IMG/VR virus record: IMGVR_UViG_3300025543_000049
Location: 1 to 46,932 of that record
Source: a virus
Length of the DNA stretch: 46,932 nucleotides
Strand: one strand, 5' to 3'
A program made the position numbers and the translations under genes. This document shows positions 30,779 through 45,943 of this stretch, one piece after another; the stretch's first letter is position 1, and the number at the start of each line of letters is the position of its first letter. A model generated the notes under the pieces. It was not told the origin of the DNA. It saw nothing but the letters and a program-made list of their open reading frames with translations, and did not search any database.

Positions 30779-31049
30779 TTACGATTACACCTGGAGCGAC
30801 TTTGTTGGCAACATTGGGGTTGTCATACTGCTCACCAGTTATTATCTTAATGTAGCTGGCAAAATAGACAGCAAAGGGTGGCAATATAATTTAGCTAATC
30901 TAATAGTGGCAGTTCTGTTAGGTATTAACTTGTACTACAAACCCAATATCAGTAGTATAATTATTGAAGCAGTATGGTTTATTATAGCGGCATACGGACT
31001 AGTTAGATATTATAAAATTAAGGTGCCAGACAATGAACGAAACTACTGA
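30771..31049 (+). CDS. Three-helix membrane protein, CBU_0592-like
   Basis: 92 residues with three hydrophobic segments: about 13-29 (GNIGVVILLTSYYLNVA), 41-56 (NLANLIVAVLLGINLYY) and 61-81 (SSIIIEAVWFIIAAYGLVRY). The pattern G-G-V---L-SYYL followed by N-----L-I-LYY--N--S-IIE--W--IA-YGL matches small bacterial membrane proteins of the CBU_0592 family, function unknown. It would sit in the host inner membrane. It is the only clear membrane protein of the window. It overlaps both neighbours (8 and 17 bases). Membrane location is supported by sequence; family call is from memory of the pattern. Confidence 0.65.
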   Translation: MFDYDYTWSDFVGNIGVVILLTSYYLNVAGKIDSKGWQYNLANLIVAVLLGINLYYKPNISSIIIEAVWFIIAAYGLVRYYKIKVPDNERNY

Positions 31050-31380
31050 AAATTTCTGGAAAGCCTGGGCAGAGCCTGTGCTTGAGACAGCACCTATATT
31101 TTTTAGATTGTATTATGATGACCAAGGTCGGCTATTATCTTACAGCATGGAACACTTGCCAGGTAATTACATAGACATAGATGCTGCCACATACCAACTT
31201 GGTTCACGAAATGTGCGTGTAGTTGACAGCAAACTTGTACACATAACGCCAAAGAAAACAGTTGCTAAATTAGTGCCCGGCGATACAGGAACACCTTGTT
31301 TGCCTGACAACATCAGTATTGTTGTTGATCAGCAACAACCCAACATCAAATGGAGATTGACATCGCATGAATCGGATTGA
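31033..31380 (+). CDS. Conserved hypothetical protein
   Basis: 115 residues, mixed alpha/beta and soluble. Two segments stand out: FFRLYYDDQGRLLSYSMEHL, followed by PGNYIDIDAATYQLGS, and VRVVDSKLVHITPKK. The start has AAGGTG about 8 bases upstream and overlaps the membrane-protein gene. The stop overlaps the next gene by 14 bases. No family or catalytic pattern recognised. Confidence 0.6.
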   Translation: MNETTENFWKAWAEPVLETAPIFFRLYYDDQGRLLSYSMEHLPGNYIDIDAATYQLGSRNVRVVDSKLVHITPKKTVAKLVPGDTGTPCLPDNISIVVDQQQPNIKWRLTSHESD

Positions 31381-32293
31381 CATTGCAGACCTTGACTGCA
31401 TTTACTTGACATACGACGAGCCACAGAAGGAAGAATTCTGGGTAAAGATTCGCAACATGGTTCCGTGGGCCAAACGTGTTGACGGAGTCAAAGGCAGTGA
31501 CGCCGCACACAAAGCAGCCGCGGCCGCAAGTGATACAGAACGCTTTGTCTTGATTGATGGCGACAACATGCCAGACCCTGAGTTTTTTAACTTGACACTG
31601 GAGTTGCCAGATGCACAGTGGGAATCAGCAGTGTTTCGCTGGAGAGCCCGTAATCATGTCAACGGATTGATGTACGGCAATGGTGGACTAAGTAGTTGGA
31701 CAAGAAAATTTGTCAATGATATGCAAACACACGAAGCCACAGATGGACGAACAGAAACAGAAGTAGAGTTTTGTTTTGACCCGTTGTATTGGGCCATGCA
31801 TGATTGTTATTCAACAACATTTCCAAATGGATCTGCGTTCCACGCATGGCGTGCAGGATTCCGAGAAGGTGTCAAGATGTGTTTGAATGTGGGCAAGAAA
31901 CCCACAGTAACCGAGTTTCGAGATCGTGTACATCAACGCAATCTCGACAACTTGACTGTATGGCACAATGTGGGCCGTGACGCCGAACACGGCATTTGGA
32001 GCATGGCAGGATCACGTATGGGCTCTTACATGACCATGCTGACAGACTGGGATTATCGTACTGTACAAGACTTTGCTGCACTTGAACAATTGTGGGACAC
32101 AGTCAAAGACACTGATCCAGAAATTGTACTAAGTAAAGTAGCAGAAGATCTCGGCACTCAGTTGGACTTGCCGATGGTATGGTTTGATGAACCCACTAGC
32201 AAATTCTTTAAACACCATTACCGCAGTAACTGGCACAACCGTGGCGTTGCTGTGAGAGAAATTGATGTAATACGAAAACAAGAAGGATGGTAA
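31367..32293 (+). CDS. Glycosyltransferase family 2-like protein
   Basis: 308 residues. The N-terminal 70 residues have a GT2-like layout: strand CIYLTYDEPQ, helix, VKGSDAAHKAAAAASDTERF and VLIDGDNMPDPE with Asp64 and Asp66 as the metal/nucleotide-sugar motif. WRARNHVNGLMYGNGGLSSW is a plausible acceptor-site region. The C-terminal 100 residues are helical. It overlaps the previous gene by 14 bases. One base separates it from the first radical SAM gene, where base composition changes abruptly to AT-rich. It is the third GT-A-type enzyme of the operon; donor and acceptor are unknown. Confidence 0.6.
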   Translation: MNRIDIADLDCIYLTYDEPQKEEFWVKIRNMVPWAKRVDGVKGSDAAHKAAAAASDTERFVLIDGDNMPDPEFFNLTLELPDAQWESAVFRWRARNHVNGLMYGNGGLSSWTRKFVNDMQTHEATDGRTETEVEFCFDPLYWAMHDCYSTTFPNGSAFHAWRAGFREGVKMCLNVGKKPTVTEFRDRVHQRNLDNLTVWHNVGRDAEHGIWSMAGSRMGSYMTMLTDWDYRTVQDFAALEQLWDTVKDTDPEIVLSKVAEDLGTQLDLPMVWFDEPTSKFFKHHYRSNWHNRGVAVREIDVIRKQEGW

Positions 32294-32294
32294 C

Positions 32295-33323
32295 ATGTAT
32301 CAACACGCAGAACTAGTACACTGGATGAAAAACAAAGAAGTTAAAAAATTTATTCCATCAAGTGTTGACATTGATTTAACTAACATCTGTAACCAAGATT
32401 GTTATTATTGTAATTCAGCAGAGCATCGTGCTTCAAAACCAATACAAAAAAAATACACTGAATATATTAAACTATTAGACCAATTAACCACATGGAGAGC
32501 ACATACCCCTAACAGCTTTGGTAGTTTGCACACTATTACATATCCCGGTGGCGGCGAGCCAACATTATTGCCAAATTATGAAAAAGTATTAGAGCACACA
32601 ATTGATCTTGGATTTTTAACTGCGTTAACAACAAACGGTACTAAATTAGAAAAACTAATTAATAATGTCAGTGTTGCAAAAATTAAAAAAATGGCATGGA
32701 TTGGTATAGATATTGATGCTGGAGAAGAAGAATTGTATGAAAAAATTCGAAGAAGTTTAACTAAAAAATCTCCATTTAATAAAGTTATGCAAAATGCTAA
32801 AGAATTAGTAAAATTAGGAGCTAATGTTGATTTTAAAATATTATTAAACGAACATAATAGTACACCTACTGCATTAAATGATATTTTTTTAAAATCTCAA
32901 GAAATTGGTATACGCCTTTTGTACATACGACCGACTGTTATTGGTAATACTGCATTTCCTTTTTCTGATAATACACTGATGCTAATTGACCAACTAGCGT
33001 TAAAATATCATGTTACGGTAAAATTAAATAAAAATAAATTTTTATCTAGAAATTATAATCGTTGCCATCAAATGTTTCAATTTCCTGTATTTTGCGCCGA
33101 CGGCGAAATCTATACATGTTGCGACAATAAAGGAGTTGACAACTTCTCCATCGGCCGCTGGGATCAGGGAGACTTTAGAGATATATGGCTTGGTCCTAGA
33201 CATTATGAAGTATATAATAAAATTAATACACATCTGTGTCACCCATGCCGTCCAAATGCTAGTAATATACAAATACAAAATATGTTAGACAATCCCCAAT
33301 TGTTGGAAACTTTATATCTATGA
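32295..33323 (+). CDS. Radical SAM protein with C-terminal SPASM-like domain (cassette A)
   Basis: 342 residues. Cys32, Cys36 and Cys39 (CNQDCYYC) are the CX3CX2C ligands of the SAM-cleaving 4Fe-4S cluster. GGGEP at 85-89 is the SAM-binding GGE motif. The C-terminal third carries further Cys (FCADGEIYTCCDNKG near 268-282, then HLCHPC near 316-321) in a SPASM/twitch arrangement for an auxiliary cluster. Such enzymes usually modify peptides or carbohydrates by radical chemistry. The gene opens an AT-rich block: the line 32641-32700 is 14/60 G+C. The next gene overlaps its stop by 4 bases. The substrate is unknown. Confidence 0.85.
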   Translation: MYQHAELVHWMKNKEVKKFIPSSVDIDLTNICNQDCYYCNSAEHRASKPIQKKYTEYIKLLDQLTTWRAHTPNSFGSLHTITYPGGGEPTLLPNYEKVLEHTIDLGFLTALTTNGTKLEKLINNVSVAKIKKMAWIGIDIDAGEEELYEKIRRSLTKKSPFNKVMQNAKELVKLGANVDFKILLNEHNSTPTALNDIFLKSQEIGIRLLYIRPTVIGNTAFPFSDNTLMLIDQLALKYHVTVKLNKNKFLSRNYNRCHQMFQFPVFCADGEIYTCCDNKGVDNFSIGRWDQGDFRDIWLGPRHYEVYNKINTHLCHPCRPNASNIQIQNMLDNPQLLETLYL

Positions 33324-33682
33324 GTGCATTTTTTCCTATTACCGAAATAGTAGATCGGTATTCTATTGCAAAATTAAAATTTAACAAAACGAAAAACAAT
33401 TTTGACGAATTACAGTTTTATCAAACTCAGATGAATTTGTATGATATTTTATGTATCAAGGACGAGTTAGAGCAGTTATACGAGATTCATTCTAATATAT
33501 GGGAACTTGAATCTCAATTAAAACGCGGAGTAGAGCATCAACTAAGTCTTGACGAAATAGGAAGGCGTGCCATCAAAATTCGAGATTGGAACAATAAACG
33601 AGTATTTCTTAAAAATAGCATGGCTATTAAATTAGGGCAAGGTAATATTACAGAAATTAAAAAAGACCACCTATCTGAATAA
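33320..33682 (+). CDS. DUF6165-like small protein (cassette A)
   Basis: 120 residues. ITEIVDRYSIAKLKFNK, a central ELEQLYEIHSNIWELESQL helix, and a closing RAIKIRDWNNKRVFLKNSM then GNITEIKK match the layout I recall for the DUF6165 family (E-ID--TIL-IK, then N--R--LK--IN, then EEK). That family is usually found in polysaccharide or nucleotide-sugar loci and has no known reaction. The protein is helical and soluble, has no signal peptide and has AT-rich codons like its neighbours. It starts inside the radical SAM stop and ends one base before the next gene. Confidence 0.6.
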   Translation: MSAFFPITEIVDRYSIAKLKFNKTKNNFDELQFYQTQMNLYDILCIKDELEQLYEIHSNIWELESQLKRGVEHQLSLDEIGRRAIKIRDWNNKRVFLKNSMAIKLGQGNITEIKKDHLSE

Positions 33683-33683
33683 C

Positions 33684-34640
33684 ATGTTTACTTTAATTTT
33701 ATCTGACAGAATAATCTATAATCAAAAAGAATTTTTAGATTTTTTAATTGCTAGTCAAAAAAATCCAATAAATATTTCCACTAATTCCGAAGGAGCATGT
33801 TTAAGTGCCTACGGAGTATATGAATTAATTGAACAATTTGAGTATTCTGATGTCACTATTTATACTTCTAATATGTTGGAGTTGCACAATCGTTATACCA
33901 TTAAAAAACAACACGGATTATTGTGGTTTAACATTAAAAAATGTGATTATGCAGACTCTCACATGTGGAATCAAACTAAAATTTTTGGTTGCTTTTATAA
34001 TCGACCTACGTGGTATCGCATTGGGCTGGCAGCCAATTTAGAATATAATTTTAAAGAAATATCATTAATAAATTTTAGACGAGACCCAATGGATGAAAAT
34101 CAGCGTAAGTTTTTTGATGTAAATCGATTATTTAAATATCACCCAGACAGTTTTAAATTGTTTAGTCAAGTAGTCGATCGGTGGCCTTGTACCCTTGAAA
34201 ATCATAATAATTTTCGTGTTGGAACATCAACAGATACATTAACTACTCAGTTATCAAGTTTCTATAAAGATTTTTTGATTGATATTGTTGCCGAAACATG
34301 GGTCGAAGGTACTACTTTTGCTCCAACGGAAAAAACAGTCCGTCCGATGTTGTTAAAAAAACCGTTCATTATATTTGCATCACAGGATTATTTGTGTTAT
34401 CTCAGACAACTAGGATTTAAAACATTCCAGACTCCTGAATCTACATTCTGGTCCGAAGATTATGATGGATATGAAGGCCGAGAACGATATATAAGAATAC
34501 TGGCACTAATTGATGAATTAGCCAAAAAATCTAAAACAGAATTAGAAGAAATGTACCAAGCCATGCAACCAATACTTGATCACAACTACAATTTATTAGT
34601 AACCCAAAGTTATAATAAGACAATAACAAAAATAGTATGA
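33684..34640 (+). CDS. TEK/LGF-TF motif protein, glycosyltransferase-like (cassette A)
   Basis: 318 residues. The C-terminal half contains FAPTEKTVRPMLLKKPFIIF, LRQLGFKTFQTPESTFWSED and an R-I-ALIDEL helix. The product of 38607-39674 has the same order: TEK, K/R-P, P-F/W-I, R-LGF-TF, E-D, R. I read the TEK block as resembling the donor-binding C-terminal lobe of some glycosyltransferases (the EK motif of GT10-like enzymes). That is inference; no named family is certain. The N-terminal 150 residues are unlike the paralogue. Strongly AT-rich. It follows the DUF6165-like gene by one base and overlaps the SGNH gene by 4. Confidence 0.55.
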   Translation: MFTLILSDRIIYNQKEFLDFLIASQKNPINISTNSEGACLSAYGVYELIEQFEYSDVTIYTSNMLELHNRYTIKKQHGLLWFNIKKCDYADSHMWNQTKIFGCFYNRPTWYRIGLAANLEYNFKEISLINFRRDPMDENQRKFFDVNRLFKYHPDSFKLFSQVVDRWPCTLENHNNFRVGTSTDTLTTQLSSFYKDFLIDIVAETWVEGTTFAPTEKTVRPMLLKKPFIIFASQDYLCYLRQLGFKTFQTPESTFWSEDYDGYEGRERYIRILALIDELAKKSKTELEEMYQAMQPILDHNYNLLVTQSYNKTITKIV

Positions 34641-35449
34641 TACTGGCTACAGATTCTTTGCCAACATATTTTACAATAGCAACCCCACAAAATAGTCATT
34701 ATGCAAAGGCAACTAATACATTTGATTTTACTAATAGAAACTCAGAAGTGTTAGTGATTACATGCGGGGATAGTTGGACATGGGGAGCTGATCTTACACC
34801 AAGCGATAATGAAGAATTTAGAGTAACTCATGCATACGGAAACATTGTTTCTGACAGACTGGGCGCTGATTGGTTAAATTTAGGGCAATCTGGATCTAAC
34901 AATTTTTTTATCGCCGAGCGAATTGAGGAGTTATCTAACATTATTCCATCACTAAATTATAATAAAATTTATCTAATTTGTACATTTACTGAAATTGGTA
35001 GATCATTTAATAGTCATCACGATGTATATCTTGATTATGTAAATTGGTTTAACAACAACTCAATTGATAATTTTTTAAATTTTCTTAATGCGGAATGTGT
35101 TAGAAGAATAAAACAGGTCGCAACAAAACATAACATTAAATTAGTCATTGGTACTAATTTTATTGACGCAGTTGGAATTGATGCAGACGTGCTATTGCCA
35201 TTGCCGTGGTTCCGATTACTGGACATAGACTGCCCGGTGAAAGGATATGCCGGAACTACCGGAGTAAAACGATTGCAATCAGTTACTGAATTTGTGAATG
35301 ATACATCATATAAAATTTGGATGAACGAGTTGATAGATACCTCTTACTATATTGATCAAGTATGTGCATCGCCAACATTAGTTACACAACATCCTCAATC
35401 ATCTGGCCATAAGATATGGGCAGAATACATATTGGAAAATATTAAATGA
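34637..35449 (+). CDS. SGNH/GDSL-hydrolase-like protein (cassette A)
   Basis: 270 residues. Block I is CGDSWTWG with the presumed nucleophile Ser46. Block II is LNLGQSGSNN near 85-95. Block III is represented by LICTFTEIGR, without the usual Asn. The C-terminal HPQSSGH (His252 to His258) is in the place of the catalytic DxxH, with the Asp not obvious. It is therefore an SGNH-type esterase, or a non-hydrolytic relative if the Asp is truly missing. Typical substrates of the family are O-acyl groups on sugars and lipids. It ends cassette A, and the stop overlaps the next radical SAM start by 4 bases. Confidence 0.65.
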   Translation: MILATDSLPTYFTIATPQNSHYAKATNTFDFTNRNSEVLVITCGDSWTWGADLTPSDNEEFRVTHAYGNIVSDRLGADWLNLGQSGSNNFFIAERIEELSNIIPSLNYNKIYLICTFTEIGRSFNSHHDVYLDYVNWFNNNSIDNFLNFLNAECVRRIKQVATKHNIKLVIGTNFIDAVGIDADVLLPLPWFRLLDIDCPVKGYAGTTGVKRLQSVTEFVNDTSYKIWMNELIDTSYYIDQVCASPTLVTQHPQSSGHKIWAEYILENIK

Positions 35450-36867
35450 ACAAAGGTGACGAAGTTAGCAAAGACTTTAAATCAAAGTTTTTAAGCGATG
35501 CTGAATTGATCAAAGAACAGTTGGACACTGTGAGTCCCAGCATGTGTTTGGCCAAATGGAAACAAGTCAGTCTACACCTGACCACCGGTCTCAACAACAG
35601 TTGCTATCATCCTCCGCTACATCGTATTCCTGTAGAAGCAATAGGTCGCAATCCCTCTGCACTACACAACACTGATTACAAAAAGCAACAGCGTAAACAG
35701 ATGCTGGAAGGCATACGGCCTGCAGAGTGTAGCTATTGCTGGACAATGGAAGACAATGGTAAACTAAGCGATCGCCATTATAGATCTGGTGAGCCATGGG
35801 CTGCCAAGGACTTTGGCAAGATTGTCAACGCTGACTGGGATGCTGACATTACTCCCAGCTATGTAGAAGTAAATTTCAACAATGCGTGTAATCTTGCTTG
35901 CAGTTATTGCAGCCCACAGTTCAGCAGTACATGGCAACAAGAAACAGATCGCCATGGTGCTTATCCTACGTCCACTCCGCACAATGCTCCAGAACATTTT
36001 ACAGGAGAACGCAAACCTATTCCAGTTCGTGAGGATAATCCTTATGTGGATGCGTTTTGGGCGTGGTGGCCTACACTATATCCAGAACTGGAACACTTCC
36101 GTATGACCGGCGGCGAACCTTTGATGGACAAAAACACATACAGAGTGTTTGACTATGTGTTGGACAATCCCAAGCCTGATTTGCACTTGAATGTGACCAG
36201 TAACTTTAGTGTAGACGAAAAACTATGGCAAAAGTATCTTGCATACACCAAACAACTGTGTCAAGAAGGTGTACTTGAACACTTTATGCAGTACATCAGT
36301 TTGGACGGATGGGGCGAACAAGCAGAATACATGCGTCACGGACTTGACTTTGACTTAGTATGGTCAAGAGTAAATCAATTCCTAACCGAAGTTCCTTACC
36401 GTAACAGCATTACATTTATTGTGACAATGAACAATCTAAGTGTTACAAGTTTGCCAAAACTGATTGCTGGCATACTTGATCTTAGAAAAAAACACAGTAG
36501 TACATATCAACGTGTGTGGTTTGATACTCCTGTGTTGCGTCAACCTGCTTGGCAAAGTTTACAACTGTTGCCAAAAAGTTATGTGGCACAGTTGGACAAA
36601 TTAAAAACTTCAATGCAACACAACATCGAAACAGAAGCGACCAGATTTCACGGCTTTAAAGATTACGAAATAGCCCGTCTCGATCGTGACATAGCGTGGA
36701 TGCGCAATGGACAACAGTTGGACAAAGAGTATTTGCAAACAAACAAAGCAGACTTTTATCGTTTCTTCAGCGAATCGGATCGTAGGCATGCAACAGAGTT
36801 TAATAAAGTATTTCCAGAAATGAAGTCATGGTGGGAAGAATGTAAATATTTGGCTAACAACTTATGA
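35446..36867 (+). CDS. N-terminal twitch radical SAM protein, paralogue 1
   Basis: 473 residues. Four Cys precede the core (34, 53, 95, 98; NSCYHPPLHR and AECSYCW) and form the N-terminal auxiliary-cluster domain. The core ligands are Cys148, Cys152 and Cys155 (CNLACSYC), and MTGGEPLMD is the GGE motif. This order matches the twitch-domain radical SAM group common in marine phages. It is closely related to the product of 39667-41016 across the N-terminal domain (NP-ALHN--KK--RK-ML-G-RPA-C-YCW--ED). Base composition returns to that of the virion genes (36061-36120 is 34/60 G+C). Four-base overlaps on both sides. The substrate is unknown. Confidence 0.85.
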   Translation: MNKGDEVSKDFKSKFLSDAELIKEQLDTVSPSMCLAKWKQVSLHLTTGLNNSCYHPPLHRIPVEAIGRNPSALHNTDYKKQQRKQMLEGIRPAECSYCWTMEDNGKLSDRHYRSGEPWAAKDFGKIVNADWDADITPSYVEVNFNNACNLACSYCSPQFSSTWQQETDRHGAYPTSTPHNAPEHFTGERKPIPVREDNPYVDAFWAWWPTLYPELEHFRMTGGEPLMDKNTYRVFDYVLDNPKPDLHLNVTSNFSVDEKLWQKYLAYTKQLCQEGVLEHFMQYISLDGWGEQAEYMRHGLDFDLVWSRVNQFLTEVPYRNSITFIVTMNNLSVTSLPKLIAGILDLRKKHSSTYQRVWFDTPVLRQPAWQSLQLLPKSYVAQLDKLKTSMQHNIETEATRFHGFKDYEIARLDRDIAWMRNGQQLDKEYLQTNKADFYRFFSESDRRHATEFNKVFPEMKSWWEECKYLANNL

Positions 36868-37922
36868 ATAAATTATATATACAAAGTACTGACCTAACCT
36901 CGTTGTTAATCGAACCAACTGGGTATTGTAATGCCAACTGTCCTCATTGTCCTCGATATACAGATGATGGATATCTTCACGACTACATTCCTGAAGAACA
37001 TTTAACAATAGACGCATTTCGACACGGCCTTAATCAAAAAAATCTTACAAATTTACAAGTGGTTAATTTTGCTGGTGCCACAGGCGACCCGATAATGAAT
37101 CCAAATATCGAAGATCTAATAGAATTTTTTAATTTTGTTCCATCTATTAGATTAGATACCAATGGCAGCATAAGAAATCCTGCATGGTGGAGTAGGTTAG
37201 CAAGATTTTCCAATTTAACTGTAGTGTGGTCAATAGATGGATTAGAAGACACAAATTGTTTATATAGAATAGGAACTGATTATCAAACAATTATTAGCAA
37301 TGCACAAGCATATATTTCTTCTGGCGGCAATGCTGTTTGGAAGTGTATAATTTTTAAACATAATCAGCATCAGATTGCCGAAGTTAAAAAAACTGCTAAA
37401 GCAATGGGGTTTAAAGGAATACAATTTGTCAAGGCATATGATTATAGATTTCAAGAACAAAAAGTATGGCCAGTGATGGTCAAAGGAACACAGTTACATA
37501 CTATTTCTCCAAGCAGTCTGTCAGAAGATGAAATAACAGCACACTCTGTAGATCCAACAAAAATACACGAGTCATCGGGTAAATTATCAAATATTTTATG
37601 TCCATGGATGAAAAATCGATCAGCATATATTAATCTGTTAGGAGAGTTAATGCCTTGTTGTATGATGACTCACGAAACGACTAACAATTATCCCGGAAGT
37701 ACCAAATTTAAAAATACAATTGGAAATTTTAAAAATATTTCGTTATACCATAATACCATGGATGAAATATTTAAAAATTATTACGGAAGTAATTTTAATC
37801 AATCGTTAATGGATGTAAACACTATGCAAGATGTCTGTGCTAAATCTTGCAAAAATGCAATCGTTGATAATTCAAAAATCATTGGTTTTCGAGTGCCAAC
37901 AAAAAATCATGACAACAATTAA
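36864..37922 (+). CDS. Radical SAM protein with C-terminal SPASM (cassette B)
   Basis: 352 residues. Core Cys22, Cys26 and Cys29 (CNANCPHC) lie near the N-terminus, so no N-terminal twitch domain is present. The usual GGEP is replaced by GATGDP (about 71-76), an odd variant. The C-terminal domain has Cys in LCPWMKN, ELMPCCMM and DVCAKSCKN, the SPASM pattern. It corresponds in position and architecture to the 342-residue enzyme of cassette A but is divergent. AT-rich (37741-37800 is 14/60 G+C). It overlaps the upstream gene by 4 and the SGNH gene by 14 bases. The substrate is unknown. Confidence 0.8.
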   Translation: MNKLYIQSTDLTSLLIEPTGYCNANCPHCPRYTDDGYLHDYIPEEHLTIDAFRHGLNQKNLTNLQVVNFAGATGDPIMNPNIEDLIEFFNFVPSIRLDTNGSIRNPAWWSRLARFSNLTVVWSIDGLEDTNCLYRIGTDYQTIISNAQAYISSGGNAVWKCIIFKHNQHQIAEVKKTAKAMGFKGIQFVKAYDYRFQEQKVWPVMVKGTQLHTISPSSLSEDEITAHSVDPTKIHESSGKLSNILCPWMKNRSAYINLLGELMPCCMMTHETTNNYPGSTKFKNTIGNFKNISLYHNTMDEIFKNYYGSNFNQSLMDVNTMQDVCAKSCKNAIVDNSKIIGFRVPTKNHDNN

Positions 37923-38610
37923 TAATATATTAGTAAATGGCTGTAGTTTTAGTCGAGGACCTATTGCCTGGCCTTATCATCTTAAAGATGTAGATGTAGT
38001 CAACTTGGCCTGTGCTGGTGCAGGCAACGACTACATATTCAATTCAACTATTGCAGAATTAAGCCATCGACAATATGATTTTGTAGCTATAATGTGGACT
38101 CAACCATCTCGTCTCGACGTTAAAGTAACCGACATAACTCAATTTAGTGACTCGCCGTATACTAGTGCATTTCAGTCTGCTTGCAATGACTGGGCAGAGA
38201 AAATAGTTGAACCAGTAAACGACCAAGACTATGTAGAAAAAGATTGGGTATACGGTTGTGGATTTTTAAATAAAGATCCAGCATTATTAAAAACAAAGTT
38301 GTTTGACCAAGTGTACTACTATCAAGACGACACTCAGTTTAATCATCTAACACTTGTAAAAATGATTGCTATGCAAAATACGCTAAAACAAATGGGTATT
38401 CCTTATTTGTTTACTTACTTCTGTGACTACGAGAATGACCTAGCAAAAATACCACACTTGTATAATATGTTAGATAAGTCTTGTATCTATAATAATGAAA
38501 ACATCTATACTATAACAAAAAACAACAATTGGTTCGACGATGACGGACTGCATCCCGGGATTCTAGCACATCAGCGTTGGGCTGAACTAATTGCACCGTT
38601 TATCAAATGA
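37909..38610 (+). CDS. SGNH-hydrolase-like protein (cassette B)
   Basis: 233 residues from ATG 37909. An ATG at 37831 would add 26 residues within the upstream gene; I reject it because block I should be near the N-terminus. Block I is VNGCSFSRGP (Ser13). Block II is NLACAGAGNDYIF. IMWTQPSRLD fits block III. DDDGLHPG has Asp212 and His215 as the catalytic DxxH. All expected residues are present, so this one looks active, unlike the cassette A counterpart. It is a likely esterase or acyl-transfer enzyme on sugars or a related small molecule. It overlaps the next gene by 4 bases. Confidence 0.7.
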   Translation: MTTINNILVNGCSFSRGPIAWPYHLKDVDVVNLACAGAGNDYIFNSTIAELSHRQYDFVAIMWTQPSRLDVKVTDITQFSDSPYTSAFQSACNDWAEKIVEPVNDQDYVEKDWVYGCGFLNKDPALLKTKLFDQVYYYQDDTQFNHLTLVKMIAMQNTLKQMGIPYLFTYFCDYENDLAKIPHLYNMLDKSCIYNNENIYTITKNNNWFDDDGLHPGILAHQRWAELIAPFIK

Positions 38611-39674
38611 TAAACAATCGTAAATTAATTGTTGATGTCAACTGCGGAGTGGTTAACGAACTCACACACTTTGTAGATGATAAATTTTACGACCTTGAAA
38701 AACATACTCTTGTGCCAAGCGCCGTATACCTAATAGGGTATGATCAAACTCGGCAGCATCTTGAAAAAATTGTAGAGTTAGTAAAAAATAATACTATAAA
38801 AGTTATTTTTACTGAACCAGTTGAAGGGTCTGATACTGCAATAAATCATTGTACAAATGCAGGAATACTTGATTTAATCAAGGAAAGAAAAGTATTATTA
38901 TTAACTGGCGGCGATGTGCCAGTTGAATATCCGCATTTAACATACGATATTTTTCTTACTAAAGTATTAGATTATAGCGAAAATATCAAAGCCATACAAA
39001 ATTATAAAGACAGCTACTCAACAGACAGACCTTATAAGTTTTTGTTTTTAAATGGGCAAGTTAGATATCATAGAAAATATATGATAAACCAACTGTCGGC
39101 ACTGCTCGATACCGCCTTATGGAGTAACTTAGACGCTGGAAATGGTCCTATAAAATTATTGGAACAACAATATGAACTTGGTCGATTCAACGTTGACTTT
39201 CCTATAACTGATAAAAATGTAAAAAGTAAATTGTTTGGAACTGGGATATGGGGAGATATAATACTAAGCCCAAAACAATATACCGATACTTATTTCAGTT
39301 TAGTAACAGAAACAGTACACAAATATCCGTACAGTTTTAGAACAGAAAAAATTTGGAAACCCATTGCCATTGGGCATCCTTGGATTGCAGTAGCCAATCA
39401 AGGATTTTATAGAGATATGCGTAACCTTGGATTTCAAACTTTTGGACATGTGATTGATGAAAGTTTTGATTTGATAGAAAACAATCAAGATCGATTAGAA
39501 AGAGTCAGTCAACTTGTCCGGGATCTATGCCAACAAGACCTTGCAAGTTTCTTAAATGAGTGTTATAATGTATGTAAATACAATCAACAACATCTTGCCG
39601 AAATGCGAATAAAAGTTCGGTCCGAGTTTCCTAAACGCTTCCAACAGTTTGTAACCAACCATATCAATGAATGA
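38607..39674 (+). CDS. TEK/LGF-TF motif protein, glycosyltransferase-like (cassette B)
   Basis: 355 residues. The C-terminal 130 residues (SFRTEKIWKPIAIGHPWIAV, then MRNLGFQTFGHVIDESFD and an R--RVSQLVRDL helix) match the cassette A protein at 33684-34640 in motif order and spacing. The N-terminal part contains KFLFLNGQVRYHRKYMINQL, a plausible binding region absent from the other copy. A glycosyltransferase-like reading of the TEK block is inference. AT-rich codons. It overlaps the SGNH gene by 4 bases and the following radical SAM gene by 8. Confidence 0.55.
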   Translation: MINNRKLIVDVNCGVVNELTHFVDDKFYDLEKHTLVPSAVYLIGYDQTRQHLEKIVELVKNNTIKVIFTEPVEGSDTAINHCTNAGILDLIKERKVLLLTGGDVPVEYPHLTYDIFLTKVLDYSENIKAIQNYKDSYSTDRPYKFLFLNGQVRYHRKYMINQLSALLDTALWSNLDAGNGPIKLLEQQYELGRFNVDFPITDKNVKSKLFGTGIWGDIILSPKQYTDTYFSLVTETVHKYPYSFRTEKIWKPIAIGHPWIAVANQGFYRDMRNLGFQTFGHVIDESFDLIENNQDRLERVSQLVRDLCQQDLASFLNECYNVCKYNQQHLAEMRIKVRSEFPKRFQQFVTNHINE

Positions 39675-41016
39675 TTTAGATTTTAAACATCAAGTATTAG
39701 ATACCAAAAGCGCCAGTTTTTGTGCTGCCAAATGGTACAACGCCACCATTTGGTTAGGTAGTGGCATGACCACAAGTTGTCATCACCCACCAGCACACAA
39801 AGTTGATGTACAAGAAGTAAAGTTTAATCCCAAAGCATTGCACAACAGTTTGCAAAAGAAAGATGACCGCAAGAAGATGTTGGCAGGTAAACGTCCTGCA
39901 GGGTGTGAGTACTGCTGGAAGATCGAAGACATGGCAACTGATGCCGTTAGCGACCGTGTTTATAAAAGTAAAATATATCCTTTAGTAGCACTGGATGATG
40001 CTTACAATACTCCTTACACAGAAGATGTAAATCTTCGCACACTTGAAATTGCGTTTGACCGAACGTGCCAATTTGCTTGTAGCTATTGCAATCCTGCTTT
40101 CAGTAGCACTTGGGTCAAAGATATCAAACGTCATGGTGCTTACACAGCCCTTGAATCTGACGGACGAAATCACTTTACACATGCTCACGACAGTGCTCAG
40201 TTGTTCAAGTACGGTGAAACAAATCCGTATGTAGAAGCATTCCACAAATGGTGGGAATCCGACCTGCATAAGACATTGCAAGAACTGCGAATAACCGGCG
40301 GCGAGCCAATGATGTCAGGTGAGACTTGGAAACTAATTGATTGGTTTAACAAAAACAAAGGTAAGAGCACCACACGTTTGGCAATCAATAGTAACTTAGG
40401 CGACGGTGTTGACGTAGATAGACTACTGCATTCAATTGATGGTGTTTACGAATTTGATGTATATACTTCAAATGAAAGTGTTGGTGCACAAGCCGAATAC
40501 ATTCGCGACGGACTCGACTGGGACCTATGGTTAGCCAATATGGAAAAACTCGCATCAAGCGGGAAACTACATTGGTTACACGTGATGTGCACAATTAATG
40601 CATTGTGTCTTGACAGTTTGCCTGAATTCTTAGACAAGCTACTAGACATGAAAAGCAGATATACCAGAGATTTTCCCATGTTTACCTTAAATATTTTAAG
40701 ATTTCCTAGTTTCCAATCACCGCTGGTGTTGCCATCCGAAATAAGAACAAAATACAAAAACAAATTAGAACAATGGCTTGAAAAAAATAAAAACAGTGCA
40801 TTGTTACACGAACACGAAATTAATCATGTACAACGGTTAATTGATTATTTAGATGTTGTTAAAACTCCGCATTCGGACTCGTTCGAGATGCCAAAATTAT
40901 TAAATGATTTTAAACAGTTTTATACTCAGTATGATCAACGAAGGAATAAAGATTTTGGAAAAGCATTTCCTGATTTAAAAGAATGGTATGACAGCTTACA
41001 AATACAACAGCAGTGA
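39667..41016 (+). CDS. N-terminal twitch radical SAM protein, paralogue 2
   Basis: 449 residues. N-terminal cluster Cys at 19, 38, 80 and 83 (TSCHHPPAHK, AGCEYCW). Core Cys134, Cys138 and Cys141 (CQFACSYC). RITGGEPMM is the SAM-binding motif. It aligns by eye with the product of 35446-36867 over the whole N-terminal domain and into FSSTW-K---RHGAY, so the two are gene duplicates separated by cassette B. The last 100 residues are helical and more AT-rich in the DNA. It overlaps the next gene by 29 bases, more than elsewhere in the operon. The substrate is unknown. Confidence 0.85.
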   Translation: MNDLDFKHQVLDTKSASFCAAKWYNATIWLGSGMTTSCHHPPAHKVDVQEVKFNPKALHNSLQKKDDRKKMLAGKRPAGCEYCWKIEDMATDAVSDRVYKSKIYPLVALDDAYNTPYTEDVNLRTLEIAFDRTCQFACSYCNPAFSSTWVKDIKRHGAYTALESDGRNHFTHAHDSAQLFKYGETNPYVEAFHKWWESDLHKTLQELRITGGEPMMSGETWKLIDWFNKNKGKSTTRLAINSNLGDGVDVDRLLHSIDGVYEFDVYTSNESVGAQAEYIRDGLDWDLWLANMEKLASSGKLHWLHVMCTINALCLDSLPEFLDKLLDMKSRYTRDFPMFTLNILRFPSFQSPLVLPSEIRTKYKNKLEQWLEKNKNSALLHEHEINHVQRLIDYLDVVKTPHSDSFEMPKLLNDFKQFYTQYDQRRNKDFGKAFPDLKEWYDSLQIQQQ

Positions 41017-42271
41017 TTTAGTAAAACCAACGGAGTTAACAGAACGCGAAGAATTTCTATTAAAAGATTCTAAAACGTTTTGTATCTATCCTTGGATACA
41101 TGTACACGCATATCCAACAGGCGAAGCATATCCTTGCTGTCATGCCGAAATGAACGTGGGACAAATTGGCAACTGCAAAACAAACACACTAGCAGAAATT
41201 TGGAACAGTCCTGAGCAACGACAACTGCGAGTTGATATGTTGACTGAGACACCCAATGCTGCTTGCGGTCGATGTTACGAACAAGAAGAGTCTGGATTCT
41301 TTAGCGGTCGTCGAAGTGCAAACAAGCATCACGGACATCAAGTCAACCGGGTAAATGCCACTGACAACACTGGACACACTGAGCAGTTTGAAATGACATA
41401 CTGGGATTTGCGGTTCAGTAACTTATGTAATTTAAGTTGCAGAAGTTGCGGCCACATCTTCAGCAGTAGTTGGTACAAGGATCAAACTGTGTTGGCAGGT
41501 CCTGCATGGGCAAAACAAAACAAGCCATTAAACTATGCTGGCCGCTTTGCCACCGACATGTGGGAACAACTGATTGAACATATCGATCATGTGGAGCAAA
41601 TTTACTTTGCAGGCGGCGAGCCCTTGATGATGGAAGAACACTACTTGATTCTAGAAGAACTAGAACGCAGAGGACGATTTGATGTTAGACTAATATACAA
41701 CACCAATTTTACACAAACACGTCTTAAAGATCGCACTGTGTTTGATTACTGGCGAAAGTTTGACAGTGTAGCAGTTGGTGCAAGTTTAGATGCAGCTGGC
41801 GCACGTGGAGAGTATATCAGAAAAGGTACCGACTGGGCTGTGGTAGAAGCGAACCGTCGAGAAATGATGGAGATATGCCCCAAGGTAGACTTCTATATTA
41901 GCCCCACACTAAGCATTATGAACGCAATGCATTTACCCGACTTCCATAGAGACTGGGTAGAAAAAGGCTTGTTGAAGCCGCAAGACCTTAACGTAAATAT
42001 ACTACAAGATCCTGCTTATTTGCGAATTGACATTGCAACAGCCGAATACAAACAACAAATACAAACCAGATACGAAGAACATTTAGAATGGTTACGCCCA
42101 TTGGACCATTTAACTCGTGCCACAGTTGGTTTTGAAAGTGCTATTACATTTATGAACAGCACAGACAATACACATTTGCTAGACACATTCTGGCGCAAGA
42201 CACATGAGCTAGACAGCATACGCTACGAAAAGCTATTAGACGTAATACCCGAATTGAAAGCACTTACATGA
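40988..42271 (+). CDS. N-terminal twitch radical SAM protein 3
   Basis: 427 residues. The N-terminal auxiliary domain is a full SPASM-like unit placed in front: FCIYPWIHVHAYPTGEAYPC (Cys32, Cys50, Cys51), LAEIWNSPEQRQLR, and Cys93/Cys96 (CGRC). The core ligands are Cys147, Cys151 and Cys154 (CNLSCRSC) followed by FSSSW. FAGGEPLMMEEHY is the GGE motif, and SVAVGASLDA fits the barrel strand that follows. It groups with the next two genes and not with the HHPP-type paralogues. The start is well inside the previous gene. The substrate is unknown; such enzymes elsewhere act on peptides or sugars. Confidence 0.85.
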   Translation: MTAYKYNSSDLVKPTELTEREEFLLKDSKTFCIYPWIHVHAYPTGEAYPCCHAEMNVGQIGNCKTNTLAEIWNSPEQRQLRVDMLTETPNAACGRCYEQEESGFFSGRRSANKHHGHQVNRVNATDNTGHTEQFEMTYWDLRFSNLCNLSCRSCGHIFSSSWYKDQTVLAGPAWAKQNKPLNYAGRFATDMWEQLIEHIDHVEQIYFAGGEPLMMEEHYLILEELERRGRFDVRLIYNTNFTQTRLKDRTVFDYWRKFDSVAVGASLDAAGARGEYIRKGTDWAVVEANRREMMEICPKVDFYISPTLSIMNAMHLPDFHRDWVEKGLLKPQDLNVNILQDPAYLRIDIATAEYKQQIQTRYEEHLEWLRPLDHLTRATVGFESAITFMNSTDNTHLLDTFWRKTHELDSIRYEKLLDVIPELKALT

Positions 42272-43482
42272 ATATACCGCACGATACATTCTGCGTGTTA
42301 CCTTGGATCAGCTTAGAAGCCAGTCCCGTCGGCACTGTACGCCCATGCTGTTTGGCAATGGATGAGATTGAAGACGACAACGGAGACAAGTATAAATTAG
42401 CAAACACTAGTCTAATAGAAATACAAAATAGTCAAGCAATGCAAACGTTGCGTGAAGATTTTCTTGCTGGTAAAAAGCCACAAAATTGCCGTCGTTGCTG
42501 GAATGAAGAACGAGCCGGTCGTACCAGCAAACGCATGCATACACTGGACAGACTCAAACACATGATTGACGAAAATGTGTCATGGTCCACGGATGCTATG
42601 CCGTTGATGTTTCTTGATCTCAAACTGGGAAACATTTGCAACTTGAAATGCCGTATATGCGGATCGTGGAGTTCAAGCCAGTTTGCAGCAGAAGAAATCA
42701 AGTTCAATAAAAAAGAAGAGACCCGCGGCAGCTTTGCTTATAAAATGCTCAAGGATGGTGCATGGCCAAGAGAAAGCGCAGAGTTTTGGGATGACTTAGA
42801 CCAGCACTTGGACAACATACGTTATATTGAGTTCACTGGTGGTGAACCTTTCATGATCAAAGAACACTTCCAACTGCTACAAAAACTAGTGGATACAGGT
42901 CGTGCAGGCCAAGTTGAAATACATTACAATACCAATGGTACACAGTACCCTGAGGAAGGCGAAGCAATTTGGAAACATTTTAAACATGTTGAAATTGCAC
43001 TAAGCATTGACGATGTTGAAGGTCGTTTTGAGTATCAACGTAGCAATGCATTATGGTCAGAAGTAGTTGCAAATACAGAACGTTTCCGTCAACTACGCAG
43101 CCGCAACAACAATATCACATTGCAAGCATGCTGTACTATCAATGTGTTCAACGTGTATTATCTTGAAACAGTGGCCAATTGGTTAGTGCAACAACAGTTT
43201 GATTTTATATACTGGAACATGATGCATGATGCTTATTATTTTAGTATCAGCACACTGCCGGAAGCGGCCAAAGCAGCAATCACCGAAAGATTGACCACAG
43301 CCAATGTGCCTGATAAAATCTTAAAAGAATTTGTCAGTGCCGCAGAGTTTATGAATCGCGGCAACAGTTTAGACGGCCAGTTGTTGCGAATGAATCTACT
43401 TGACCTTGACCGTAAACGTCAACAGAACTTGGCAGATATAGAACCAGAATTTGCAGCATTGATCGACTATGTCAAAGCCTGA
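42268..43482 (+). CDS. N-terminal twitch radical SAM protein 4
   Basis: 404 residues. N-terminal domain Cys9, Cys27, Cys28, Cys74 and Cys77 (DTFCVLPWISLEASPVGTVR, CRRC). Core Cys124, Cys128 and Cys131 (CNLKCRIC) with GSWSSSQ after it. EFTGGEPFMIKEHF is the GGE motif. It has the same architecture as the genes on both sides, and the PW-I-L--SP-G--RPCC element is shared with them. The tail LADIEPEFAALIDYVK is a shared C-terminal pattern in this set (compare LDVIPELKAL). It overlaps by 4 bases upstream and 14 downstream. Confidence 0.85.
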   Translation: MNIPHDTFCVLPWISLEASPVGTVRPCCLAMDEIEDDNGDKYKLANTSLIEIQNSQAMQTLREDFLAGKKPQNCRRCWNEERAGRTSKRMHTLDRLKHMIDENVSWSTDAMPLMFLDLKLGNICNLKCRICGSWSSSQFAAEEIKFNKKEETRGSFAYKMLKDGAWPRESAEFWDDLDQHLDNIRYIEFTGGEPFMIKEHFQLLQKLVDTGRAGQVEIHYNTNGTQYPEEGEAIWKHFKHVEIALSIDDVEGRFEYQRSNALWSEVVANTERFRQLRSRNNNITLQACCTINVFNVYYLETVANWLVQQQFDFIYWNMMHDAYYFSISTLPEAAKAAITERLTTANVPDKILKEFVSAAEFMNRGNSLDGQLLRMNLLDLDRKRQQNLADIEPEFAALIDYVKA

Positions 43483-44773
43483 TATCAAGCCGGACACGTT
43501 ATGTATGGCGCCGTGGACTCACACTTATCTGAGTCCGCAAACAGAACGTAGACTGTGTTGTGCCAGCCGCGAACCTGCACAAAATTTTGAACAGTACATT
43601 GATACCAGCGCAGGCACAGGCAAATATATTCCCGTCACACTGGACCAACATTGGAACAGTGAGCACATGCGAAGTGTACGCCGTCGTATGATGGCAGGCG
43701 AAACAATTCCAGAATGTGATGTATGCAACAGCAAATTGCTAAACACTGATGTTTACCGTAGCTATTTCTGGGCAATGTTCAAACATAAGTACAACAGCAT
43801 TTGGGAAACTACTGATGCTGATGGCAGCACAAGCATGCTGCCGGTCAGTTGGGATTATAGGTTTAGTAACTTGTGTAATTTTAAATGCCGCATGTGTGGG
43901 GATATGTTGAGCAGTTCGTGGGAAAGCGAACAACGCCAGCATAATATGATCAACTGGTCTGATCCAAAAAACAATTGGATGCAGCCAGCAGTTAGAAAGG
44001 ATATAGCGGCGTTTCAAGACCAACAAATTGAAGCAGAGTTTGCTTCGGCAGTAGAGCAACACCGTATAGAGGAAGTGTACTGGGTCGGCGGAGAACCACT
44101 CATGTATGAACAGCACTGGCGCTATATGAATCGCATTGTTGAACTTGGTGACGGCCCAAGAGTATATGCACGATATAACACTAATTTGTCTCGGACTAGC
44201 TACCGGGGTATTGATCTATTCGATAATATTATTAATAATCTACGCGACTGGCAAATATGCGCAAGCCTCGACGGAACGGGCCCGATTGGCGAATATATTA
44301 GAACAGGCCTTGACTATAGTAGCTGGCGCAAAAACTACGATAGAGCAGTTACGGCAAGCACTCACAGAAGACAAACAAGAATTGACTTCACACTCACCTT
44401 GCCTGGAATGTTCGAAGTTGGGAACATTGTGCGACTTGCACAAGAAACCAACACAGACATCTTAGCCAAGGTAGTATTTGCTTTCACGCCGGACATTGTG
44501 ATGAGCCCACTGGCCTTGCCCAGGCATTTACTTGATCCTTGGATTGATGAACTGGTAACTACTTGTTCAGGAGCAATGCAAGATGTACTGATGCAATTAA
44601 AGACTCGGCCTACGTTTGAAGAACAATGGCCAGACACATGGAAACAAGGCATTGCCAACGGCAAGCGCCGCGTATTAAAGTTAGAACAAATTCGCGAAGA
44701 TAAATTTACAATGGCTGATATACTGGCCGGACGCTCTGAAATATTAAAGTGGTGGAATCAAATTGACTGTTAA
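43469..44773 (+). CDS. N-terminal twitch radical SAM protein 5
   Basis: 434 residues. N-terminal domain Cys12, Cys30, Cys31, Cys83 and Cys86 (LCMAPWTHTYLSPQTERRLC, CDVC). Core Cys136, Cys140 and Cys143 (CNFKCRMC), then LSSSWESE. WVGGEPLMYEQHW is the GGE motif. It is the last of the three consecutive SPASM-first enzymes. The first codons overlap the previous gene by 14 bases. The stop overlaps the TTG start of the following unknown gene by 11. A forward alternative frame of 109 codons at 44136-44465 lies wholly inside and is a shadow. The substrate is unknown. Confidence 0.85.
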   Translation: MSKPDIKPDTLCMAPWTHTYLSPQTERRLCCASREPAQNFEQYIDTSAGTGKYIPVTLDQHWNSEHMRSVRRRMMAGETIPECDVCNSKLLNTDVYRSYFWAMFKHKYNSIWETTDADGSTSMLPVSWDYRFSNLCNFKCRMCGDMLSSSWESEQRQHNMINWSDPKNNWMQPAVRKDIAAFQDQQIEAEFASAVEQHRIEEVYWVGGEPLMYEQHWRYMNRIVELGDGPRVYARYNTNLSRTSYRGIDLFDNIINNLRDWQICASLDGTGPIGEYIRTGLDYSSWRKNYDRAVTASTHRRQTRIDFTLTLPGMFEVGNIVRLAQETNTDILAKVVFAFTPDIVMSPLALPRHLLDPWIDELVTTCSGAMQDVLMQLKTRPTFEEQWPDTWKQGIANGKRRVLKLEQIREDKFTMADILAGRSEILKWWNQIDC

Positions 44774-45845
44774 AATTGTATTGCGGAATCCGCTGAAGCA
44801 CAGCGATCAAGTTGACTATACCGTAGTACCAGCTGACAACGCACTTGCTCAAGACTGGATACCTGCATTAAAAACATTGTTGCAATCTAATAATCTATTG
44901 GAAAAAAACTTTTGTTTTATGGGCTTTCCTAAAACAGCTCGCACACTTGAGTATTTGTGCAACGAAGCAAATTTGGCTGCCAAAGTTATTAATAACTTTT
45001 TTGATGATTACACAATCGAAGAAGTACTACGCCCGGAAGACTGCGTAGCATTTGATTACGCAGATAACGGTCCCAATCACGAAGTGTTTAATCGATTACA
45101 CAACCACTTTGAAGTGTTGCAAGGCACAGTAAGCAATCTAAGCAGTTATTATCATCGTGCTGACTACAACACAAAGTATGCTATAAGACAGCTCAACAAT
45201 ACGTGTCACGAAATGGAAACACTGATTCTTAGTCAGCGCAAGTTAGCAACCAATCCGTATTGGGTACGGCCAAGTCAAATCACTACATTTTTAGCAGCAC
45301 CACGTTACGATCTTAAATCAATACATAGATCAGGATTTACTATAAACGGTTATGATCGTGTGCTGGGCGGCGTTTACATGCACTGGGCACAGATTGGTAA
45401 AACACTATTTGAAGTATTCCGCGACGAACATGCGCCAGTGCTAACCGACACAGTATGCGAAGCTATTACAGAATTAAAGTACTACAGCGGCGAGTTTGAC
45501 ATAGAATGGGGTAATGATATAGTGTACGGTGGCAACGCTCCGTGGCACGATGCAGAACAAGATCGATTCCGAGAATGGCTAATTGCCAACGGTCGCGACC
45601 CAGAAGATAACTCACTGAGCTTAGGATACTTGCCGATTGGACAAGTGTTGTTACAACAAAGTTTTGGCACAACCGATTACCAAGCCATTTGGGATATACT
45701 GGGTTCGCATTTAGATATATACAAGATAGAAATAGATGGTATCAGCAGTACATTTGACTACTGCTGGACAGATGAAGACTACAAACAACAACAAATTGAC
45801 ATGATGCGCCCGGGCTATGACTATTCATCAAGGAAAACAATATGA
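44763..45845 (+). CDS. Unknown 360-residue protein coupled to the radical SAM genes
   Basis: The start is a TTG at 44763, overlapping the previous stop; no ATG or GTG lies close enough to replace it, and the product (TVKIVLRNPLKHSDQVDYTV) reads as a genuine N-terminus. It is soluble and mixed alpha/beta with many aromatic and His residues (SSYYHRADYNTKYAIRQLNN, NGYDRVLGGVYMHWAQIGK). The C-terminal half contains EWGNDIVYGG and SLGYLPIGQVLL. I recognise no family. Its fixed place between five radical SAM genes and a carbamoyltransferase suggests it works on, or carries, their substrate; this is inference. Its stop overlaps the next start (ATGA). Confidence 0.65.
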   Translation: MTVKIVLRNPLKHSDQVDYTVVPADNALAQDWIPALKTLLQSNNLLEKNFCFMGFPKTARTLEYLCNEANLAAKVINNFFDDYTIEEVLRPEDCVAFDYADNGPNHEVFNRLHNHFEVLQGTVSNLSSYYHRADYNTKYAIRQLNNTCHEMETLILSQRKLATNPYWVRPSQITTFLAAPRYDLKSIHRSGFTINGYDRVLGGVYMHWAQIGKTLFEVFRDEHAPVLTDTVCEAITELKYYSGEFDIEWGNDIVYGGNAPWHDAEQDRFREWLIANGRDPEDNSLSLGYLPIGQVLLQQSFGTTDYQAIWDILGSHLDIYKIEIDGISSTFDYCWTDEDYKQQQIDMMRPGYDYSSRKTI

Positions 45846-45943
45846 ACTGGATTAAAAACTTAATTAACCGTATTCGATTAGAAATACGCTATCGCAAAAA
45901 ACTTAAAGAACTTCGTAAACGAGATCCTTTCATCTACAAATGA
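45842..45943 (+). CDS. 33-residue basic peptide
   Basis: ATG at 45842, TGA at 45941-45943, with ATGA overlaps at both ends, so reading is locked into the operon. The peptide begins MNWIKNLINRIRLEIRYRKK and ends RDPFIYK. It is an amphipathic, Arg/Lys-rich helix with a defined aromatic end. It is too short for most gene callers. It could be a docking peptide for the carbamoyltransferase, a membrane- or nucleic-acid-binding helix or a substrate of the radical SAM enzymes. It has no Cys, Gly-rich leader or double-Gly site, so a classical RiPP precursor is doubtful. Confidence 0.65.
   Translation: MNWIKNLINRIRLEIRYRKKLKELRKRDPFIYK

Follow-up and report, generated by a model that had tools for sequence, protein, structure and literature searches.

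How do two blocks of AT-rich genes of similar make-up come to lie among the radical S-adenosylmethionine (radical SAM) enzyme genes of a virus, and what would such a locus do? The question is raised by a 46,932-nucleotide (nt) stretch of viral DNA, positions 1 to 46,932 of IMG/VR record IMGVR_UViG_3300025543_000049 (hereafter the window), in which seven genes fill two blocks, 32295-35449 and 36864-39674. The original prediction was that one unit, consisting of a radical SAM enzyme, an SGNH protein and a TEK-motif protein, had been acquired repeatedly from an AT-rich source. We find instead a constant array of backbone genes, five of which encode N-twitch radical SAM enzymes, with slots at its junctions whose cargo turns over between related phages. 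With somewhat more confidence than doubt, we read the whole as a multi-slot hypervariable tailoring locus that varies a glycan or small-group decoration on a phage protein, probably one of the virion.

The genes concerned are as follows (GC, G+C content).

31367..32293, + strand: GT308, backbone 308-amino-acid (aa) protein with a GT-A-like fold, left border of slot 1 (fold model, Foldseek)
32295..33323, + strand: rSAM-A, slot 1 cargo, radical SAM enzyme with a SPASM-like C-terminus (PF04055, E 1e-14; GC 31%)
33320..33682, + strand: 120-aa helical-looking protein, slot 1 cargo, partner of rSAM-A (beside or near it in relatives)
33684..34640, + strand: TEK-A, slot 1 cargo, predicted GT-B glycosyltransferase (match to the TEK-B profile, hhalign E 1e-41; GC 31%)
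34637..35449, + strand: SGNH-A, slot 1 cargo, SGNH-hydrolase-like (GDSWTWG and NxGxSGxN motifs; GC 34%)
35446..36867, + strand: NTW1, N-twitch radical SAM enzyme, border of slots 1 and 2 (NF033640, 325 bits)
36864..37922, + strand: rSAM-B, slot 2 cargo, radical SAM enzyme with a SPASM-like C-terminus (PF04055, E 7e-8; GC 33%)
37909..38610, + strand: SGNH-B, slot 2 cargo, its start better set at 37909 (60% identical partner beside the rSAM-B relative in locus L120)
38607..39674, + strand: TEK-B, slot 2 resident, predicted GT-B glycosyltransferase (AlphaFold model, predicted local distance difference test score [pLDDT] 93.7)
39667..41016, + strand: NTW2, N-twitch radical SAM enzyme (NF033640, 310 bits)
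40988..42271, + strand: TW3, N-twitch radical SAM enzyme; adjoining slots 3 and 4 empty in the window (NF033640, 400 bits)
42268..43482, + strand: TW4, N-twitch radical SAM enzyme; slot 5 after it empty in the window (NF033640, 348 bits)
43469..44773, + strand: TW5, N-twitch radical SAM enzyme (NF033640, 285 bits)
44763..45845, + strand: 360-aa protein; slot 6 after it empty in the window (conserved position)
45940..46932, + strand: carbamoyltransferase of the NodU/TobZ type, cut at the window end (PF02543, 129 bits)

A constant array with variable slots

Relatives of NTW1 are encoded in 417 viral stretches, of which the best 80 were fetched; NTW1 is present in 90 fetched loci, which form 77 clusters at 97% nucleotide identity. 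The slot frequencies below therefore hold for the window's lineage alone, the fetched loci being the closest 80 of 417, and they derive from mechanical gene calls on partial contigs. Across the 77 clusters (90 loci), the backbone order GT308 - NTW1 - NTW2 - TW3 - TW4 - TW5 - 360-aa gene - carbamoyltransferase is unchanged, with all eight genes visible in 40 loci. The five radical SAM genes of this array pass the curated cut-off of 170 bits of the N_Twi_rSAM model (NF033640) with 285-400 bits. The original prediction had named two N-twitch paralogues, one following each block; both are N-twitch enzymes, but they are just two of five in a row, and rather than following cassettes they belong to the constant backbone, the cargo filling the gaps between them.

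The other backbone proteins are constant in position as well. GT308 (64-95% identity among 38 aligned sequences) has a GT-A-like fold (pLDDT 87.7), and its best Foldseek match is the major capsid protein glycosyltransferase of PBCV-1 (2p6w, E 5e-4); with VIA Z scores of up to 8.8 over about 140 residues, it can be called a nucleotide-sugar-type fold at most. The 360-aa protein matches no model in Pfam or NCBIfam, and the carbamoyltransferase is found in all eight long relatives (300-353 kb). N-twitch genes abound beyond the array: 13 relatives of 183-353 kb (L022, L032, L033, L036, L037, L058, L060, L062, L073, L081, L083, L087, and L094) contain 8-21 N-twitch matches per contig, most of them outside the island. 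The array thus belongs to a wider expansion in this lineage. Three of the N-twitch matches in these 13 contigs carry stop codons and may be decaying copies.

Scoring a slot as filled when the gap was at least 300 bp, we found slot 1 (between GT308 and NTW1) filled in 56 of 76 clusters and slot 2 (between NTW1 and NTW2) in 61 of 67, mostly by the resident TEK-B. The remaining slots were filled less often (slot 3, 3/56; slot 4, 11/56; slot 5, 22/52; slot 6, 8/37), and the junction between TW5 and the 360-aa gene was filled in 0/46. Five junctions immediately upstream of the array served as controls; in these loci they contained an extra 300 bp or more in 0/63, 0/67, 1/70, 0/71, and 2/75 cases (3/346 in total). 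Since these junctions are almost uninterrupted, the insertion hotspots are the radical SAM array's own and not a feature of the region at large.

Where a slot is empty, the start of the right-hand gene lies at the left gene's stop codon or within a few bases of it, and cargo is accommodated with equally tight spacing. Some "empty" slot 1 gaps of 59-126 nt reflect only the choice of start codon, the right gene lying directly after the stop (e.g., TGGTAA-GTGCAAAATAAAGG in L009). The 3' end of GT308 (CAAGAAGGATGGTAA) contains the ribosome-binding-like motif AAGAAGG, and CAAGAA occurs at this end in 56 of 70 clusters, whereas the codon usage of GT308 itself predicts 36 (p 6e-7, uncorrected for relatedness). 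Carried within the left gene, a ribosome-binding site could serve the translation of whichever cargo follows.

Several individual loci deserve mention. Slot 1 cargo on the opposite strand (SGNH, DegT aminotransferase, and nitronate-monooxygenase-like genes) is found in L024, L056, L066, L072, L034, L047, L049, and L075, in an otherwise one-strand operon. In L054, a fragment of a second gene resembling NTW2 (77% identical) occupies slot 2, into which a backbone gene has apparently been duplicated. In L021 (20110-21195), a complete S-adenosylmethionine synthetase gene occupies slot 6, the gap separating the 360-aa and carbamoyltransferase genes, and presumably feeds the radical SAM enzymes.

Because NTW1 relatives occur in contigs of up to 353 kb, the carrier of the window is probably a jumbo phage. 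The baseplate-hub-like gene at 3776-5290 is 28-39% identical to those of the jumbo myoviruses Atu_ph07 and PA5oct. Among 50,697 phage records, none matched the full region in a DNA search, and the NTW1, TEK-A, and TEK-B proteins had no match among isolates at E 1e-5, so there is no close cultured relative. The carriers are a lineage of uncultured jumbo myovirus-like phages from water, with both freshwater and marine members, which we do not equate with the "Moraphages" (PMC12619734), a text in which radical SAM is unmentioned. The only cultured phages found with tandem TW3-related genes are of the type of Vibrio phage K566 (L125, OZ196521.1, 161548-165950; 22% identity, four places in the record), which may offer a way to study the chemistry in the laboratory. 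Within the window, 11014-25455 is a single 4813-aa open frame, probably encoding a giant tail or baseplate protein.

Origin and exchange of the cargo

The two blocks hold the same three gene classes, but their members are not sister genes. rSAM-A and rSAM-B share 22% identity over 119 residues (E 0.03), SGNH-A and SGNH-B give no significant match in pairwise comparison, and TEK-A and TEK-B, 29% identical over 90 residues, are homologous by profile (E 1e-41). A duplication of block A from block B, considered as a further origin, is ruled out by these comparisons.

The near relatives tell how block B arose. In L009-L014, TEK-B stands alone in slot 2 and overlaps the end of NTW1; in L008, whose contig ends in TEK-B, NTW1 runs straight into it, leaving an empty site for the rSAM-B/SGNH-B pair. 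In the window, this 1.74-kb pair is wedged exactly between NTW1 and TEK-B. Therefore, block B is a two-gene insertion before a long-term resident rather than a second copy of a three-gene unit. The NTW1 gene itself breaks near its 3' end when compared with L008 and L009: it agrees with L008 until about 45 nt from the stop, where the tail reads KYLANNL as opposed to EYHARQS in L008 and resembles those of other lineages, among them L030, L045, L052, and L054. Such a switched tail fits recombination within the NTW1 3' end.

Cargo has also moved between phages. Among L008-L014, the window's nearest relatives, slot 1 either has no cargo or is otherwise filled; specifically, it is empty in L009-L012 and holds one other gene in L008, near relatives with about 92% identical NTW1 DNA. 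The multi-gene slot 1 cargo of L047 and L049 shows 86% DNA identity over 3375 bp, as against 70-74% for the backbone genes. rSAM-A has relatives of 58-67% identity in 16 viral loci and is discordant with the backbone, being closer to L104 (67%; NTW1 64%) than to L041 (53%; NTW1 76%). Together with its 120-aa partner (48-65% identity, beside or near rSAM-A), it recurs in slot 1 in both L104 and L105 as well as beyond such loci, in the unrelated viral contigs L106-L108 and L112-L115; L104 also has TEK-A, in the same order. For rSAM-B, one close viral relative was found (64%), in the single recurrence of the pair at L120:5980-7775, between h115 and GT308, where the SGNH-B partner is 60% identical and the two genes have 33% and 29% GC in a locus of 42%. 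At each end, this insert has the 14-nt repeat ATGAATCAAATTGA, with which GT308 begins; the insert looks as if it had taken up that start. The cargo exchange supposed at the outset is thus supported.

On the TEK tree, slot labels change 5 times, compared with 32 for shuffled labels, so that TEK lineages mostly keep one slot, and TEK-A falls in the slot 1 clade. SGNH genes are less slot-bound (9 changes vs 11.5), and SGNH-B groups with slot 1 SGNH genes (Shimodaira-Hasegawa-like approximate likelihood ratio test support, 95-98). These patterns indicate that cargo is exchanged chiefly between equivalent slots of different phages, although it has sometimes moved elsewhere. A 14-sequence profile of rSAM-A, run against 84,980 species genomes to look for a bacterial source, returned no relative, a weak negative because just two short patterns were usable; TEK-A patterns likewise found nothing in viral contigs, though TEK-A relatives exist in loci obtained otherwise.

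The AT-richness from which the original prediction started is real. Its four single-line G+C counts (14, 14, 34, and 24 of 60) were exact on recount, and the seven block genes have 31-36% GC and a GC at third codon positions (GC3) of 0.21-0.31, compared with 39-47% and 0.36-0.44 in their immediate neighbors. They are the lowest in GC of the window (Mann-Whitney p = 1e-6) apart from one 279-bp gene (30771-31049, 35.8%), which lies in a variable stretch upstream of GT308 and encodes a small, likely multi-membrane-spanning protein. Leave-one-out codon usage favors the cassette class in 6/7 block genes, SGNH-B being neutral, and in 0/25 other window genes. A 500-bp GC profile drops at 32.3 kb and 36.9 kb and rises again at 35.4 kb and 39.7 kb, so the switches do coincide with gene borders. 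The 4-base overlaps claimed for these borders are present at 35446 and 36864, but block A begins after a 1-base gap behind the 31367-32293 gene (at 32295), and the overlap at 39667 is 8 bases.

AT-richness is, however, general to the cargo. In 153 of 161 filled slots, the cargo is AT-richer than the flanking backbone genes, by 4.9 points on average (the sign-test p of 7e-36 overstates the evidence, as the loci are related). At the same time, the GC of the cargo increases with that of the carrier (slope 0.81, r 0.57, n = 161; slope 1.04 in slot 2), and TEK-B keeps 34-36% GC as a resident without recent transfer. A single AT-rich donor would predict a flat line and is not needed. The offset looks like a lasting property of the gene pool, which alone is no proof of recent acquisition, and it resembles that of bacterial O-antigen loci, which are classically AT-rich. 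Altogether, although both blocks are AT-rich and share three classes, repeated acquisition of one unit from an AT-rich donor is very improbable: the partners are not sisters, TEK-B is resident with just rSAM-B and SGNH-B added, cargo GC follows the carrier, and the near relatives contradict it.

Predicted function of the locus

Clustering of 256 cargo proteins gave TEK (91), radical SAM (34), and SGNH (29) as dominant families, each in several slots, and the three classes picked out from the window do recur (the TEK count is 91, not 93, since two SGNH-A-type proteins were mis-joined to the single-linkage family F0 on a 4.4-unit branch). Other cargo comprises NAD epimerase/GDP-mannose dehydratase, UDP-glucose dehydrogenase, Stf0 sulfotransferase, AMP-ligase, DegT aminotransferase, B12-radical SAM, and S-adenosylmethionine synthetase genes, along with proteins without a Pfam match judged by eye alone to be sulfotransferase-like, oxygenase-like, or methyltransferase-like.

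TEK-B is a predicted GT-B-fold glycosyltransferase. The VIA list for its model consists entirely of GT-B enzymes (Z 10.8-13.3, residues 1-355), led by an Actinobacillus glucosyltransferase (8xsg, Z 13.3), a GT10 fucosyltransferase (2nzw, Z 12.6, within 1 of several other GT-B families), whose catalytic motif the TEK motif may resemble, and T4 BGT (Z 12.2), with Foldseek E values of 6.5e-3 or worse; a TEK sequence search against solved structures gave no match. The SGNH cargo has the consensus motifs GxSFTxG, NLSxxGxSN, and DxxHPxxxGH of that superfamily, and the profile of set A5, with which SGNH-A was aligned, matches TesA-type thioesterases (E 7e-10); SGNH-B alone had no match in Pfam. Two labels of the original prediction fall below threshold. 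The C-SPASM calls miss the Pfam cut-off narrowly (PF13186, 19.0 bits for rSAM-A residues 257-318 and 17.1 for rSAM-B residues 246-312, vs 21.5), and "DUF6165-like" (PF19662) has no match at E 0.1 in the window's 120-aa protein and 11.2-12.4 bits in its relatives against a cut-off of 27. Neither rSAM-A nor rSAM-B is an N_Twi_rSAM member (49.5 and 31.5 bits), and rSAM-A scores 62 bits against a cut-off of 180 for prokaryotic viperin (NF038283), despite a PADLOC pVip match (E 2.6e-21); PADLOC matches were limited to such viperin-like rSAM-A hits and a weak one to NTW1.

We propose that stop/start junctions between backbone genes act as slots in which one to six cargo genes may be gained, lost, or replaced scarlessly. 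Cargo starts on or beside the left gene's stop while the right gene keeps its own start, so that translation would stay coupled. Exchange would most likely occur by homologous recombination between co-infecting relatives, via the conserved backbone genes or microhomology at the ends. The cargo supplies predicted glycosyltransferases (TEK), SGNH hydrolases or acyltransferases, and additional radical SAM enzymes, to which relatives add sugar-nucleotide enzymes, a sulfotransferase, and an aminotransferase. The locus may thereby build and vary a modified glycan or other small-group decoration of a phage protein, most plausibly one of the tail or capsid, and the surface chemistry would then differ from phage to phage; possible benefits are host-range variation and escape from recognition or from rival phages. 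A bolder version, which we regard as conceivable though short of an even chance, is a combinatorial virus-encoded "serotype" locus, in which a constant assembly of five N-twitch enzymes, possibly performing novel chemistry on sugars or proteins, has its product on the virion's own surface re-specified by the slot genes.

The genomic setting bears on the target. In relatives reaching that far, the island follows tail-region genes (a Peptidase_G2-type protein and the 4813-aa frame, which is kept beside it), and with variable tailoring cargo between conserved flanks beside tail genes, it has the make-up of a hypervariable phage host-recognition or surface island. The initiating sugar transferase, Wzx-type flippase, and GtrA families (PF02397, PF01943, and PF04138) were found in 0/8 relatives of 300-353 kb, and the thymidylate-synthase fold (PF00303) likewise in 0/8, the completeness of these contigs being unproven. 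With enzymes for lipid-linked polysaccharide or 5-hydroxymethyl-pyrimidine missing there and tail genes adjacent, the virion is the favored target. Glycosylated capsid and tail-tube subunits of mycobacteriophages, as summarized in PMC12619734, provide a precedent.

Three other readings have to be weighed against this. The locus could alter the surface polysaccharide (O-antigen or capsule) of the infected host and so exclude competing phages, given that the cargo classes resemble O-antigen gene sets and share their AT-richness. The pelagimyophage host recognition cluster (PMC7029224) and jumbo phage capsular modification clusters (PMC7824862) have been interpreted in the same way, and such exclusion of rivals has been proposed for the lipopolysaccharide genes of pelagimyophages and cyanophages. 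Yet the initiating transferase, flippase, and GtrA are absent from the eight long relatives and the locus sits beside tail genes, which leaves a host-surface role unlikely. That the N-twitch and SPASM-like enzymes are peptide maturases, which crosslink, methylate, or otherwise modify a phage protein with no glycan involved, is more doubtful still: SPASM/twitch enzymes do commonly modify peptides, and there are weak matches to peptide-maturase models, but glycosyltransferase-fold and sugar-nucleotide enzymes dominate the cargo. Slightly less probable again is a role in phage DNA hypermodification. Radical SAM, glycosyltransferase, and carbamoyltransferase genes all occur in such pathways, and T4 BGT is a close fold of TEK-B; the tail-region location and the absence of a thymidylate-synthase-fold gene, the usual source of 5-hydroxymethyl-pyrimidines, from the eight long relatives speak against it.

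A tailoring locus for the virion has its own difficulties. We infer its substrate and product; we know of no reaction for the N-twitch radical SAM enzymes, and peptides, not sugars, are often the substrates of radical SAM enzymes that bear such auxiliary clusters. A DNA glucosyltransferase, that of T4, is among the close folds of TEK-B, and the absence of gene families from eight contigs of unproven completeness is weak evidence. As for the exchange itself, most TEK genes keep to one slot, so that unrestricted movement from slot to slot is not the rule, and neither a recombinase nor an attachment site was identified there.

Comparison with known systems

If the tailoring reading is true, these phages vary a surface coating much as bacteria vary O-antigens, by swapping enzyme genes at fixed positions of a constant pathway. 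It would also assign a function to one of the densest viral radical SAM gene sets on record and provide an entry into the chemistry of the N-twitch family, and the slots would mark places to seek new glycan-tailoring enzymes. For comparison, 11-12 radical SAM genes of all kinds in the Campylobacter phages CP220 and CPt10 have been called highly unusual (PMC2853527).

Interchangeable radical SAM modules, hypervariable islands, and two-anchor hotspots are already on record; we came across no account of a constant N-twitch array that anchors several slots. The five window genes belong to N_Twi_rSAM (NF033640), and we found no description of tandem arrays of this family as a phage backbone in the literature searched. 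The pelagimyophage host recognition cluster, with its radical SAM cassettes (PMC7029224), and the cyanomyophage hyperplastic region, with its lipopolysaccharide gene clusters (PMC3037559), are similarly hypervariable, lie in the structural region, and carry glycosyltransferases and lipopolysaccharide-type genes. Unlike in those islands, the slots here are fixed at conserved radical SAM junctions in 77 clusters, and the tail genes are unshuffled. The P2/P4 hotspots are likewise high-turnover loci of 1-5 kb between two conserved genes, but their cargo is anti-phage defense, whereas the cargo here consists of tailoring enzymes. The central block of CP220 and CPt10 contains five radical SAM genes and a putative amidinotransferase and differs between these similar phages as an "interchangeable module" (PMC2853527); in CP220, it likewise follows directly on baseplate-type genes and has nucleotide-diphospho-sugar transferase domains close by, and rSAM-B has weak similarity to CP220 (21-22%). 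In that case, however, the block is swapped whole between two phages, whereas here the five N-twitch genes stay constant and the cargo varies in the gaps between them.

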